Part shown: piece after piece, positions 11,515-16,003 of the stretch
How positions within the stretch are numbered: the first letter of the stretch is position 1
Layout: every line of letters starts with the position of its first letter
From: Microbispora bryophytorum
GTDB lineage: Bacteria; Actinomycetota; Actinomycetes; Streptosporangiales; Streptosporangiaceae
Reading direction: 5' to 3'
DNA: 64,000 bases
Assembly: GCF_006874465.1 (NCBI RefSeq)
Contig: NZ_VIRL01000017.1
Location: 124,001 to 188,000 of the forward strand
Notes under the pieces: generated by a model
Databases searched by the model: none
What the model saw: the letters and a program-made list of their open reading frames with translations, nothing else
Told to the model about the DNA's origin: nothing
Program-made: the position numbers and the translations under genes

Positions 11515-12507
11515 TCAGCGGCTCACGGCGATCTCCCGCTCCACGTGCGACAGCTTCTCGGGATTGCGCACGTGGTAGACGCCGGTGACGTAGCCGTTCT
11601 CGATCCGCATCGCCAGCACGCCGTCGATCTCCCCGTCGACTCGGACGAGCAGCCCAGGGCCGCCGTTGATCTGCACCACTTCGACCGACCTTACGGCGTC
11701 GCGCCGCCACCAGCGGACGGCCAGCAGGCGAGCCACCTGGCGGACCCCCACGATGGGCTGAAGCAGGGCGTGTCTGATGCCGCCGCCGTCGCTCAGGGCG
11801 ACGACGTCCGGGGCGAGGATGTCGAGCAGGCTCTGCAGGTCGCCGGTCTCCACCGCTCGCTGGAAGGCGTGGAGTGCGGCTTGGGTCTCGGCCGGTGAGG
11901 CCATGCCGCGTGGCCGGCGCACGGCGACGTGTGCGCGTGCCCGGTGGGCGATCTGGCGGACCGCGGCCTGGCTCTTGCCGACGGCCTCGGCGATCTCGTC
12001 GTAGTCCAGGTCGAACACCTCACGCAGCACGAACACCGCTCGCTCGGTCGGTGACAGCGTCTCCAGCACCAGCAGCATCGCCATCGAGACACTGTCGGCC
12101 AGCTCGACGTCCTCGGCCACGTCGGGCGCGGTCAGCAGCGGCTCGGGCAGCCACGGGCCGACGTAGGACTCCCTGCGCCGCCCGAGCGCACGCAGCCGGT
12201 CAAGCGCCTGCCGAGTGACGATCCGCACCAGAAAGGCGCGCTTGTCCCGCACGGTGTCCAGGTCGACGCTCGCCCATCGGAGCCAGGTCTCCTGCAACAC
12301 GTCCTCGGCGTCGGCGGCCGAACCGAGCATCTCGTAGGCGACGGTGAACAGCAGGTTGCGGTGGGCGACGAACGCCTCCGTGGCCGACTCCACGGCGTCC
12401 AAGGCGTCCTGGGTGTCGAAGGTGTCCGCGGTGTCGGCGGGGTCGGCGGGGTCGGCGCGATCGCGTGGCGCGGCTGTGTATGCGGATCGATCGCCTCGCT
12501 CGCTCAT
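11515..12507 (-). CDS. ECF41-type RNA polymerase sigma factor with SnoaL-like C-terminal domain
   Basis: 330 aa, ATG at 12507 (an in-frame ATG at 12534 is possible). Sigma region 2 (LFTVAYEMLGSAADAEDVLQETWLRW) spans about 50-110, region 4 (LSPTERAVFVLREVFDLDYDEIAEAVG) about 150-195. Between them is GPWLPEPL, the ECF41 hallmark, and in the extension is DGGG, a second ECF41 motif. The C-terminal 120 residues form a SnoaL/NTF2-like domain that in characterised ECF41 proteins tunes activity in place of an anti-sigma factor. The divergent gene is the expected COE-type target, and both have matching promoters. Confidence 0.93.
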   Translation of the reverse strand: MSERGDRSAYTAAPRDRADPADPADTADTFDTQDALDAVESATEAFVAHRNLLFTVAYEMLGSAADAEDVLQETWLRWASVDLDTVRDKRAFLVRIVTRQALDRLRALGRRRESYVGPWLPEPLLTAPDVAEDVELADSVSMAMLLVLETLSPTERAVFVLREVFDLDYDEIAEAVGKSQAAVRQIAHRARAHVAVRRPRGMASPAETQAALHAFQRAVETGDLQSLLDILAPDVVALSDGGGIRHALLQPIVGVRQVARLLAVRWWRRDAVRSVEVVQINGGPGLLVRVDGEIDGVLAMRIENGYVTGVYHVRNPEKLSHVEREIAVSR

Positions 12508-12551
12508 GCCGTGGCTTCTCCTGTCCGCTTCCATCCCTGCCACACGCACAG

Positions 12552-12578
12552 GACGCCGGTGTCCGCCGGTTTGTGACA
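12552..12578 (-). promoter_or_regulatory. ECF41 promoter of the sigma factor gene (autoregulation)
   Basis: On the minus strand TGTCACA (12578-12572) is followed after exactly 16 bp by CGTC (12555-12552). This matches the published ECF41 target motif TGTCACA-N16-CGTC. Confidence 0.85.
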
Positions 12579-12612
12579 CCCATGATCGGTGGTTCACGTC
12601 ACACGAGCGCGT

Positions 12613-12639
12613 TGTCACAGGGGCCGGAGCGCCGGCGTC
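12613..12639 (+). promoter_or_regulatory. ECF41 promoter of the divergent epimerase gene
   Basis: TGTCACA (12613-12619), 16 bp, then CGTC (12636-12639): the same exact motif as on the other strand, directed at the gene starting at 12722. Confidence 0.88.
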
Positions 12640-12721
12640 TCGTGTTCGTCAGGACGCCGCGCGAACGATCGGGCGGCACGCGACACCACGAATGGTGATC
12701 GAGAGAAGGGAAGGCATCGCC

Positions 12722-13504
12722 ATGCCCGCACCCACGACGAGCATCGGCAAATTCGCAGTGGCGGGAGCGACCGGGCGGCTGGGACGCCACGTCGTCGACG
12801 TCCTCGCTGAACGGGGCTACCAGGTCGTTCCGATGTCCCGAGCCACCGGCGTGGACGTCGTCACCGGTGAAGGCCTCGCCGAGGCGATCACGGGGGTCGA
12901 CGTCATCGTCGACGTCGCGTCGTGGCATGCCTCCGAGCAGGAGGCGGCGACGGAGTTCTTCCGCACCTCGACCCGCAACCTGCACGAGACCGGCCGGAAG
13001 GCGGGAGCCGGCCGGATCGTCATCGCCTCCATCATTGGCGTGGACAAGGCCACCGCCGGTTTCGGCGTCGCCAAGCAGGTGCACGAGGAGCTCAACCTGT
13101 CCGGCCCGCTGCCCGCTCGCATCCTGCGGGCCGCGCAGTTCCACGAATTCGTCGGTCAGCTCCTGGACTGGCAGCAGGGCGAGGTCGCCTACGTCCCGAA
13201 GTGGCCCAGCCAGCTCGTGGCCTGCCGTACGGTGGCCGAGGCGCTGGTCGACCTGGCCACCGACCCCGGCGCGCCCGCCCAGCCCGCTTCCGGAACGCCG
13301 ATCCCCGAGATCGCCGGGCCGCGCAAGGAGATCATTTCCGAGGCGGCCGGGCTTCTCGGCGCCCGCCGGGGCATCAAGGTCGTCGGCGTCGACGACCCCG
13401 GCCTGCCCGATGCCGAATACGCCGCCGGCGGCGGCCTCCTGCCCGGCCCGCACGCCAGGCTCGCCGGCCCCACCTTCCAGGAATGGCTCGCCACCCAGCC
13501 CTGA
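12722..13504 (+). CDS. NAD(P)-binding epimerase/reductase, ECF41 target
   Basis: 260 aa, ATG with an aagggaagg SD. An NmrA/atypical SDR protein: KFAVAGATGRLGRHVVDVLAERG (GxxGxxG nucleotide motif at about 14-20), VDVIVDVASW, then HEELNLSGPLPARILRAAQFHEF. The COE group (carboxymuconolactone decarboxylase, oxidoreductase, epimerase) are the genes classically linked to ECF41 sigma factors; this is the epimerase/oxidoreductase kind. Substrate unknown. Confidence 0.85.
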   Translation: MPAPTTSIGKFAVAGATGRLGRHVVDVLAERGYQVVPMSRATGVDVVTGEGLAEAITGVDVIVDVASWHASEQEAATEFFRTSTRNLHETGRKAGAGRIVIASIIGVDKATAGFGVAKQVHEELNLSGPLPARILRAAQFHEFVGQLLDWQQGEVAYVPKWPSQLVACRTVAEALVDLATDPGAPAQPASGTPIPEIAGPRKEIISEAAGLLGARRGIKVVGVDDPGLPDAEYAAGGGLLPGPHARLAGPTFQEWLATQP

Positions 13505-13568: not shown

Positions 13569-15923
13569 TCAGGTCGTGGCGCGGACCACCAGGCGCGTGG
13601 GGAGGACGACGGAGCTGGTGTGGCGGCCGTCGAGGCGGGACAGGAGCAGTCGCGCCAGGGCCAGGGCCTGGTCCGCGACGGGCACCCGGACGGTGGTGAG
13701 CGCCGGGGTCGTGCAGGAGGCGGCGTGGATGTCGCCGAAGCCGACGACCGCCAGGTCTTCCGGCACCCGCAGTCCTTCTTCACGCGCCGCTCGCATCGCG
13801 CCGATCGCCAGCTCGTCCGAGGTGGCGAACAGGGCATCCAGGTCCTGGCCGCCAGACAGCAGCTCGCGGGCCGCGGCGGCGCCCGATCCGCTGTCCAGAC
13901 CGGCGGGCGCGATCACCGGTCGCAGCCCGTCCTCGTGGAGCGTGGCCAGGTGCCCGGCGAGGCGGTCCTGTACGGCGACGAGGTCAAGGGGGCCGCAGAT
14001 CACCCCGATGCGGCGGCGGCCCCGGTCGAGAAGGTGCCGGGCGGCCTCCCTCGCACCGCCCCCGTTGTCCACGTCCACATGCGGCACGAGGGAGGCGATC
14101 GCGGGCTTGCCGAGCAGCACCACCGGCACCCCGGTGCGGGCGAGCCGCTCGGTGAGCGTGTCCGGGCCGTCCGGGGGAACGAGCACGACCCCGTCGACCT
14201 GCCGCGCCTCCACATGCCGGATGATGCGCCGATGGCTTTCGGGCGTGTCGGCGAGCATGAGGGTGATCTGCTTGCCGGCTCCTTCCAGGACGCTGGTGAC
14301 GTACTGCACGACCGCGGAGGTCAGCGCCTCACCGCCGTGCCGGGGGACCGACAGGACGAGCGCGACCGAGTCGGTCCGCCGGGTGACGAGGCTCCTGGCG
14401 GCGGCGTTGGGCACGTAGCCCAGCTCCTGCACGGCGCGCAGCACCGTGGCGCGCACATCGGGGCTGACCCGCGCCTCGCCGTTCACCACCCGCGAGACCG
14501 TGGCCCGGGAGACGCGCGCGCGGGCGGCGACGGTCTCGAGAGTGGGCCGCTTCGGCCGCTCCGCGCCGAGTCCGTTGCGCTTGACGACGTCGCGATACCA
14601 CAGCGCGCTGTCCTTGAGCAGCCGCCGCTGGGTGGTGAAGTCGACGTGGACGATGCCGAACTTGCGCCGGTAGCCGTCCGCCCATTCGACGCAGTCGAGC
14701 AGCGACCACAGCAGGTAGCCGCGGACCCGGGCGCCCTCGTCGATCGAGGTGCGCAGGGCCCGCAGGTGCTCCTCGACGAAGCTGATCCGGTCGACGTCGT
14801 GGATGCCGTCGCCGGTCACGACGTCCTCGAAGTCGGCGCCGTTCTCGGTGATCATCAGCTCGGTCTCGGGATACTCCTCGGACAGGCGCCGCAGGAGCAG
14901 GGACAGGCCGCTCGGCATGATGGGCCAGCCCATCGCGGTGACGGCCGTCGGCACACTGCAGAACAGGACGCCCTCGCTGCCCGGGAAGGCCGGGTCGGCC
15001 GGGGCGCTGGGCTGGGCCTGCACCGCGATGGGCGTGTAGTAGTTGACCCCGAGCAGGTCGACGGGCCGCCCGATGACGTCGAGGTCCCCGTCGCGGATGT
15101 GGCCGAGCCCGGCGGTCCTCTCGATCAGGGGCAGCAGCTCGGCGGGGTAGCGGCCACGCAGCAGCGGCTCCAGGAACTGCCGGTTGTGCAGGGCGTCGAT
15201 CCTCGCCACCGCCGCGGCGTCCTCGTCGGGGATGCCGGCGGACATGTCCCCGAGCTGCGCGGGGGTGAGGACAGGGGAGAGGTTCAGCACGACGCCGGCC
15301 CTCGCGGCGCCCTGCGCGCGCAGCGCCTCCAGGCCGAGCCCGTGCGCGAGCAGCATGTGGTGAGCGCTGACGAACGCGTCGGCCGCCGACCGTAGGCCGG
15401 GGGCGTGCACCCCCGAGCCGTAGCCGAGGAAGGCGGCGACCCACGGCTCGTTGAACGTGAACCAGGTGTCCACGCGGTCGCCGATCCTGTCGTACACGAC
15501 GCGGGCGTAGTCGGCGAAGTGGCGGGCCGTATCTCGCGAGGTCCACCCGCCGCCGTCCTGCAGCGCCTGCGGCAGGTCCCAGTGATACAGCGTCGCGTAC
15601 GGCGCGATGCCCGCCTCCAGCAACTCGTCCACGAGCCTGTCGTAGAAGTCGAGCCCCGGGCCGTTGACGCGGCCGTGCCCCTCCGGCAGCACCCGCGGCC
15701 AGCTGACCGAGAACCGGTAGGCGGCGATGCCCAGGTCCTGCATCAGCCGGACGTCCTCCGGATGGCGCGCGTAGTGGTCGCAGGCCGGGTCGCCGTACTC
15801 CCCACCCGCGAAGGCGTCCCAGATGGAGGGGCCCCGGCCGTCGCGGTCGGTGGCGCCCTCGATCTGGAACGCGGACGTGGACACTCCCCAGACGAAACCC
15901 TCTGGGAACAACGCGGTGCGCAT
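13569..15923 (-). CDS. Fusion of GH1 beta-glucosidase with LacI-family transcriptional regulator
   Basis: 784 aa, ATG at 15923, one uninterrupted frame. Residues 1-452 are a full GH1 beta-glucosidase: FVWGVSTSAFQIEG at 10-23, acid/base Glu159 in TFNEPW, NYYTP at 294, nucleophile Glu360 in ITENGAD, and the usual end LWYRDVVKRNGL. Residues 460-784 are a full LacI protein: HTH TLETVAARARVSRATVSRVV at 461-480, hinge VPNAAARSLVTRR, and a periplasmic-binding-like sensor ending VRVPVADQALALARLLLSRLDG. Only about eight residues separate the two, with no internal ATG or GTG at the junction. Enzyme and repressor are normally separate adjacent genes; here one protein could both hydrolyse and sense beta-glucosides. 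Confidence 0.92.
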   Translation of the reverse strand: MRTALFPEGFVWGVSTSAFQIEGATDRDGRGPSIWDAFAGGEYGDPACDHYARHPEDVRLMQDLGIAAYRFSVSWPRVLPEGHGRVNGPGLDFYDRLVDELLEAGIAPYATLYHWDLPQALQDGGGWTSRDTARHFADYARVVYDRIGDRVDTWFTFNEPWVAAFLGYGSGVHAPGLRSAADAFVSAHHMLLAHGLGLEALRAQGAARAGVVLNLSPVLTPAQLGDMSAGIPDEDAAAVARIDALHNRQFLEPLLRGRYPAELLPLIERTAGLGHIRDGDLDVIGRPVDLLGVNYYTPIAVQAQPSAPADPAFPGSEGVLFCSVPTAVTAMGWPIMPSGLSLLLRRLSEEYPETELMITENGADFEDVVTGDGIHDVDRISFVEEHLRALRTSIDEGARVRGYLLWSLLDCVEWADGYRRKFGIVHVDFTTQRRLLKDSALWYRDVVKRNGLGAERPKRPTLETVAARARVSRATVSRVVNGEARVSPDVRATVLRAVQELGYVPNAAARSLVTRRTDSVALVLSVPRHGGEALTSAVVQYVTSVLEGAGKQITLMLADTPESHRRIIRHVEARQVDGVVLVPPDGPDTLTERLARTGVPVVLLGKPAIASLVPHVDVDNGGGAREAARHLLDRGRRRIGVICGPLDLVAVQDRLAGHLATLHEDGLRPVIAPAGLDSGSGAAAARELLSGGQDLDALFATSDELAIGAMRAAREEGLRVPEDLAVVGFGDIHAASCTTPALTTVRVPVADQALALARLLLSRLDGRHTSSVVLPTRLVVRATT

Positions 15924-16003
15924 CTACGCGAAACCCCCGGTGACTCGGTGAGCGCTCAGTCTGCCGCGTCGCGTGCCGGACCCGCCACTCAGACGGCCGC
16001 CAC

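Follow-up and report, generated by a model that had tools for sequence, protein, structure and literature searches.

The question raised by this locus is whether a single reading frame in Microbispora bryophytorum really joins a whole glycosidase to a whole transcriptional repressor, and what a repressor carried by an enzyme would do in the cell. The window (the entire 64,000-nucleotide stretch of DNA that was analysed) contains on its minus strand a 784-codon frame at 13569-15923 that is uninterrupted by stops, starts with ATG, and has an in-frame TAG immediately 5' of that ATG (Table 1). Three Pfam domains lie above their curated cut-offs (Glyco_hydro_1, residues 4-451, E 4.7e-149; LacI HTH, residues 461-506, E 2e-13; Peripla_BP_3, residues 628-784, E 1e-30), and the protein is assigned to the NCBIfam BGL equivalog (GH1 beta-glucosidase), also above cut-off. 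The first-pass annotation had proposed a complete GH1 enzyme and a complete LacI repressor in one 784-residue frame, which these assignments bear out. The C-terminal half follows the LacI/GalR order of HTH, hinge and periplasmic-binding-protein-like sensor, with VSRATVSRVVNG as the recognition helix and YVPNAAARSL as the hinge. Since the GH1 domain starts at residue 4, the protein is presumably intracellular. Our tentative view is that the gene may well encode a single bifunctional protein, a predicted GH1 beta-glucosidase with a LacI-type repressor on its C-terminal side. A sigma-70-family gene with a C-terminal extension lies nearby (11515-12618, minus strand), and beside it, on the opposite strand and adjoining the fused gene, an NAD(P)H-binding protein is encoded (12344-13504, plus strand).

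Table 1. Position in the window of the fused gene, its parts and a candidate upstream site.
Feature	Position	Strand	Basis
GH1 beta-glucosidase/LacI fusion gene, 784 aa	13569..15923	-	Reading frame, Pfam, NCBIfam, homologue survey
GH1 catalytic domain, residues 1-452	14568..15923	-	Pfam, NCBIfam, alignment, fold comparison
Acid/base Glu159 codon	15447-15449	-	Alignment
Nucleophile Glu360 codon	14844-14846	-	Alignment
Linker, residues 453-458	14550..14567	-	Variable sequence, near-fixed length, low pLDDT
LacI-type HTH and hinge, residues 459-515	14379..14549	-	Pfam, alignment, structure model
LacI-type periplasmic-binding-protein-like sensor, residues 521-784	13572..14363	-	Pfam, alignment
Candidate operator, perfect palindrome TGAGCGCTCA	15949..15958		25 bp upstream of the start codon; weakly inferred

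The fusion is neither a chance frame nor peculiar to one strain. A protein search gave 7060 proteins that passed the E-value, and among the matches listed both Pfam domains are present in all of the best 120 of 7060 (53-99% identity), which come from Microbispora, Microtetraspora, Nonomuraea, Streptosporangium, Sphaerisporangium and other sources. We also surveyed 341 genomes belonging to the family, with about three candidates scored per genome and matches listed to about 1e-195, which gives a lower bound: by hand count, at least 79 of them carry a near full-length fusion without a stop. By genus, the fusion is found in 9 of 15 genomes of Microbispora, 3 of 4 of Microtetraspora, 47 of 54 of Nonomuraea, 7 of 16 of Streptosporangium and 8 of 11 of Sphaerisporangium, and in the one genome each of genus codes g65, g10, g84, g13 and g66. 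Four further genomes (G200, G219, G247 and G034) have partial matches, two of which, when read out, are unbroken (L090 and L091). Across the class, sampled evenly with 394 genomes (E <= 1e-170, two scored candidates per genome), the unbroken full-length fusion occurs in five genomes, all of this family, while in the four matching genomes of other families the GH1/LacI pair is split by stops. The fused architecture sought in relatives is thus found, and orthologues that are all separate genes, which had been set as the refuting outcome, are not what we see. Both halves are under purifying selection, with dN/dS values (Nei-Gojobori) of 0.15-0.39 for GH1, HTH and sensor in four genome groups (0.15-0.22 for the HTH and 0.21-0.39 for the sensor). 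An assembly error or chance frame is ruled out by the 79 or more genomes together with this selection. Among the gene calls made at the fused loci, no neighbour gene is common to all genera.

For the origin of the fusion, we built GH1 and LacI trees of the "quick" type, with SH-aLRT support only and midpoint roots. The GH1 tree contains 34 fused rows picked from 65 and 35 unfused rows; 36 unfused pairs were tried, and one (L033) was dropped as it had no LacI match. Most of the unfused pairs were taken from rows aligning in a single frame, and they therefore give no estimate of how common in-frame pairs are. With the midpoint root, the fused rows of the GH1 tree are set apart from the unfused ones by a single branch (support 94) and lie within the unfused diversity. 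In the LacI tree a single branch again separates them (support 99, starred), the midpoint root falls between fused and unfused rows, and several fused rows have long branches. No unfused row lies within the fused clade of either tree, at a sampling that is compatible with re-separation. Because a single branch splits off the fused rows in either tree, the sequences fit a single fusion of a GH1->LacI gene pair, and a recent single-strain fusion is ruled out by the trees and the 341-genome survey. The junctions of unfused pairs point to the route. In two unfused Microbispora pairs (L022 and L024), the stretch corresponding to residues 444-470 comprises the same 27 codons as in the fusion, and in these pairs two of the 27 are TGA ATG; five more unfused pairs have the identical junction spacing, and others are in different frames or further apart. 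A single event in the Streptosporangium-Microbispora-Nonomuraea family would have produced the fusion: GH1 and LacI were neighbours in an operon, in that order, and the stop and start that separated them turned into sense codons. Loss of the stop and start between neighbours was also the origin first proposed, and the L022/L024 junctions and the GH1 tree with its midpoint root bear it out.

To compare residues, we used 65 fused rows (the window's protein and 64 distinct proteins, with duplicate loci and identical proteins removed; one row, L051, is truncated by a contig end) and a second alignment, A1, of 80 rows. Glu159 and Glu360, the catalytic residues named in the first-pass annotation, fall within FNEP and TENG; both are invariant in 65/65 fused rows and 80/80 rows of A1. 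The catalytic residues of the GH1 half are therefore intact, and beta-glucosidase activity is predicted. In what follows, we call a column invariant if at least 94% of 35 unfused repressors share one residue, and changed if that residue is found in fewer than 70% of the fusions. By this definition, changed columns number 0 of 37 in the HTH and hinge, 27 of 95 in the sensor and 17 of 174 in GH1 (Fisher test for the sensor, p 6e-5 versus HTH and 1e-4 versus GH1, values that serve as guides only, columns and rows being non-independent). The unchanged HTH columns extend to the DNA-contact positions. For the sugar pocket, the rows were mapped on E. coli LacI, with R197, W220 and D274 as reference positions. 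The R197 equivalent (R654 in the window) is kept in 64/64 ungapped fused rows, and the pocket differs from that of unfused relatives at the other two. The W220 equivalent, Leu676 in the window, is Phe in 35/35 unfused and 5/65 fused rows (in A1, Phe in 10/80 and Tyr in 3/80). The D274 equivalent, Gly730 in the window, is Asp or Glu in 35/35 unfused rows; the fused rows have Gly in 29/64 and Asp in 35/64 (24/80 and 56/80, respectively, in A1), with Gly in all nine Microbispora rows. These substitutions suggest a remodelled sensor, which probably binds a different ligand or responds more weakly than the unfused repressor.

The linker between the halves drifts in sequence while its length stays nearly fixed. 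The 444-470 span is 27 residues long in 63 of the 65 fused rows and 25 in two; in A1 it is 27 in 77 of 80, 25 in two and 28 in one. A structure prediction made from 80 alignment rows has a mean pLDDT of 82.4 and a pTM of 0.61, and contains GH1-like and then LacI-like elements in order. The pLDDT falls below 50 at the linker (456-459) and the hinge (504-516, modelled as a helix at 506-513 with pLDDT <50), and therefore the relative placement of the two halves is not reliably predicted. In a Foldseek comparison, the model matches 7bbs with a TM of 0.92 normalised to the target. The best 50 matches listed are all GH1 enzymes, and the fold search is thus uninformative on the LacI half. GFP-LacI constructs show that LacI tolerates N-terminal extensions, so an N-terminal GH1 domain alone does not rule out DNA binding.

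To which operators, then, might the fused HTH bind? The unfused pairs fall into two recognition-helix classes of 9 and 26 pairs. Class A (GRG; VGRGTVSRV/I) is accompanied by TGGGAGCGCTCCCA 3.3-3.7 kb upstream of GH1 in 9/9 pairs, and class B (SRA/SRS/SKS helix) by GAGAGCGCTCTC roughly 0.1-4.8 kb upstream in 24/26, the exceptions being L026, without a GAGCGCTC site in the scanned stretch, and L162, with mixed half-sites. The match of class to site is not exact, since three class A loci (L170-L172) also carry a downstream GAGAGCGCTCTC site; some class B loci carry mixed sites. The pairing of helix class with operator class (L022-L041, L157-L176) provides a simple rule for regulon prediction in these actinobacteria. 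The fused proteins are class B in 65/65 at LacI positions 16-18 (Ser-Arg-Ala/Ser), and no TGGGAGCGCTCCCA site occurs within 400 bp before the fused gene at the loci scanned. We infer that the fusion HTH belongs to the beta-1,3-glucan (GAGAGCGCTCTC) branch and not to the CelR class, because its recognition residues match a paralogous repressor class, the one that goes with GAGAGCGCTCTC at beta-1,3-glucan genes. A cellobiose/CelR regulon was considered and rejected, as class B helix and sites do not fit it. Cellobiose, the signal first suggested, finds no support: the HTH is of a non-CelR class and the sensor pocket is altered.

The genomic context of GAGAGCGCTCTC is as follows. The window's genome has 17 TGRGAGCGCTCYCA sites (reversed control, 0) and nine GAGAGCGCTCTC sites (control, 0), the latter preceding, among others, a GH16-like CBM6 gene, a GH3 gene and the GH1 gene of a GH1->LacI pair. 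This unfused pair, with its upstream GAGAGCGCTCTC, lies near the GH16-like CBM6 gene with the same site (G000:C71:543570-549700; L039, L183) and is likely a beta-1,3-glucan locus belonging to the same genome as the window. At G000:C50:52006-54836 (L178, L179), GH1 and LacI (SRATVSRVING) genes face each other with GAGAGCGCTCTC upstream of each. A further gene behind a GAGAGCGCTCTC site (L177:1602-3012) is matched by nothing in Pfam at 1e-5 or in the PDB at 0.001; its product may be an unrecognised glucan-active enzyme. In the main clade of Nonomuraea, 17 of 19 long-flank loci (all except L107 and L110) have a GH16-CBM6 endo-1,3-glucanase-like gene near the fused gene on the opposite strand; 29-195 bp upstream of this gene lie one or two GAGAGCGCTCTC sites. 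As the synteny is inherited, the arrangement should be counted as roughly a single event, and no GH16 gene is found beside the fused gene in the eight Microbispora relatives or in the other fused loci scanned. The GH16-like genes of the Nonomuraea loci were called by motif, and Pfam lists no GH16 domain at 1e-5; a PDB comparison supports the identity for L094 (Nonomuraea), the sole protein tried, and the identity of the gene in the window's genome rests on that relative. A CAGCCTGGCCAGGCTG palindrome or near form also occurs about 80 bp before many Nonomuraea fused genes (L050, L063, L070), on the side of the upstream neighbour.

The fusion has not displaced the ordinary repressor. Separate repressors, called by identity, are present in 52 of the 53 fusion genomes checked, which are a subset of the fusion genomes. 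In 17/17 Nonomuraea genomes with the GH16 arrangement, a class B LacI lies elsewhere (89-98% identical to an unfused Nonomuraea reference), and 35 of the 36 other fusion genomes have a separate LacI 77-100% identical to the C71 copy of the window's genome; the exception, G034, is a genome that is 83% complete. All of these 36 genomes have GAGAGCGCTCTC sites. Because the separate repressor is retained in 52/53, the fusion would add a layer to a circuit that already exists. In Nonomuraea the separate repressor, present in all 17 genomes, can account for the GH16 operators, and a role of the fused LacI as the sole GH16 regulator is inseparable from it. Sites alone cannot assign which of the repressors uses them.

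An operator between 15924 and 16003, immediately before the fused gene, had been expected, and the result is mixed. In Microbispora there is a candidate, the palindrome TGAGCGCTCA, which was spotted by eye before it was tested. The exact match ACTGAGCGCTCA occurs once in the genome, at this site, and the GAGCGCTC core is intact in 7/8 Microbispora relatives and one Microtetraspora genome. The surrounding block is conserved (mean ungapped identity to the window across eight relatives of 0.96 at -20..-1 and 0.85 at -45..-21, with 0.34 at -110..-81) and may be promoter or ribosome-binding sequence. Against the candidate, the Microbispora site has three mismatches to GAGAGCGCTCTC in most rows, a score that about 7% of background stretches equal, and in Nonomuraea, Streptosporangium and Sphaerisporangium the best GAGAGCGCTCTC-class match upstream of the fused gene is no better than background. 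A genome search for the Microbispora site with one mismatch allowed gave 90 matches versus 88 for the control, and no wider regulon was found. An own-gene operator is thus weakly plausible, and only in Microbispora and its one Microtetraspora relative; general autoregulation was rejected, as no site rises above background outside these.

The reading that we favour, tentatively, is that the fusion serves as a second, enzyme-borne repressor with altered sensing, retained beside a separate repressor of the same kind. Its HTH would bind the GAGAGCGCTCTC operators of the beta-1,3-glucan regulon or, as an alternative target in Microbispora, the TGAGCGCTCA variant before its own gene. As the enzyme accumulated it would consume the inducing glucoside, and the same molecules would then restore repression; the fused sensor would probably differ from that of the unfused repressor in its ligand or in responding less strongly. 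The sequences directly show the fusion and its conservation, a single clade, catalytic and DNA-reading residues that are intact, and altered sensor positions; the choice of operator, the ligand, the feedback role and dimerisation are predictions.

An explanation that we consider rather unlikely, and take seriously all the same, is that the LacI half works alone as an ordinary repressor with a changed ligand, the fusion merely fixing a 1:1 ratio of enzyme to repressor. The modelling of both domains as normal folds agrees with this, as do the drifting linker sequence and a sensor that retains the R197 equivalent and is under purifying selection. A passive tether, however, would not need a linker whose length is nearly fixed over 65 rows, and the fused clades of both trees contain no unfused rows (again at a sampling compatible with re-separation).

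We are more doubtful of a strict trigger enzyme, a class that the predicted domain make-up fits. Here the GH1 active site would be the sugar sensor and gate the HTH via the linker, with the LacI sensor reduced to a dimerisation scaffold. Such a division of labour would account for the 27/95 changed sensor positions while HTH and GH1 hold better, for the scarcity of Phe at the W220 equivalent (5/65, versus 35/35 unfused) and the Gly at the D274 equivalent (29/64), and for a linker of near-fixed length despite its sequence drift. A mere scaffold would not be expected to show a sensor omega of 0.21-0.39, or an R197 equivalent kept in 64/64 rows as for a fold that still binds something; moreover, the D274 equivalent is still Asp in 35/64 rows (56/80 in A1), 13 of 80 rows of A1 keep an aromatic residue at 676 (Phe 10, Tyr 3), and the linker is of low confidence in the model. 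Similarly doubtful is a transfer of sensing out of the LacI pocket and into the attached enzyme, with enzyme occupancy or substrate depletion gating repression across the length-fixed linker. If this were true, the HTH would still read beta-1,3-glucan operators, key residues of the former sugar pocket would be gone, and the moved sensing would act atop an ordinary repressor in the same cell, possibly as mixed dimers.

It is also improbable that the LacI half is a non-regulating tail, whose sole use would be to dimerise or stabilise the enzyme or to keep it at the nucleoid. The lack of an operator common to all fused genes, the remodelled sensor and the separate repressor in 52/53 genomes checked are what such a tail would predict, but a tail relieved of DNA binding should not have 0/37 invariant HTH columns changed, DNA-contact positions included, nor an HTH omega of 0.15-0.22. 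Finally, it is very improbable that an internal start or linker cleavage frees a separate LacI, for although GTG codons occur at residue 446 in 18/65 fused genes, 465 in 21/65 and 471 in 23/65, and a start at 446 would keep the entire HTH, Val446 is nearly invariant as part of GH1 itself, a start at 465 or 471 would remove the first HTH helix, and 44/65 genes lack ATG, GTG and TTG altogether in residues 440-463. The window's gene is among these 44, as the first-pass annotation had said of ATG and GTG at its joint.

Enzymes that double as regulators are already known. PutA and BirA are enzymes with a DNA-binding domain in one chain, and proteins of this kind, BzdR included, are not known to join an enzyme to more than a DNA-binding domain. 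The fusion differs from these in carrying an entire LacI protein, sensor fold included, on an entire glycosidase. Its closest solved LacI relative is 5ysz, which we take to be T. fusca CelR; the two share the LacI fold and the RPTLE.VA start of the HTH, and differ in the helix (VGRGTVSRV in 5ysz, the TGGGAGCGCTCCCA class here, versus VSRATVSRV, the GAGAGCGCTCTC class). BzdR itself (PMC3602430) has a catalytic or enzyme-derived domain and a DNA-binding domain in one chain. Anderson et al. 2012 (PMC3377646) describe CelR-type operons of actinobacteria made up of ABC transporter, beta-glucosidase and LacI genes, and a CelR site with variants such as TGAGAGCGCTCTCA, the variant under which Catenulispora GH16 genes are placed. 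As described there, these operons have the same two gene families adjoining and are headed by operators with the GAGCGCTC core, but consist of separate genes and include an ABC transporter; the fusion is one polypeptide with a remodelled sensor, and its loci have no common transporter. GlyR3 of Clostridium thermocellum (PMC5483248) is a LacI repressor of a beta-1,3-glucan cluster that is released by laminaribiose and, unlike the fusion, is a separate protein without a fused enzyme.

A GH1-LacI fusion was not described in the literature that we searched by title and the start of the abstract, a scope outside which most subscription journals fall, and a check by term of a comparative LacI regulon study (PMC4052901) finds neither "fused" nor "fusion". 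A whole LacI repressor joined to a whole glycosidase and kept over about 10 genera is thus a form found in no paper searched. It also corrects the automatic annotation of such proteins, which are mostly named merely beta-glucosidase or beta-galactosidase. The related genomes provide a natural series of separate genes, same-frame neighbours and fusion, in which the route from an enzyme and a repressor to one protein, and the fate of the old sensor, are directly testable.
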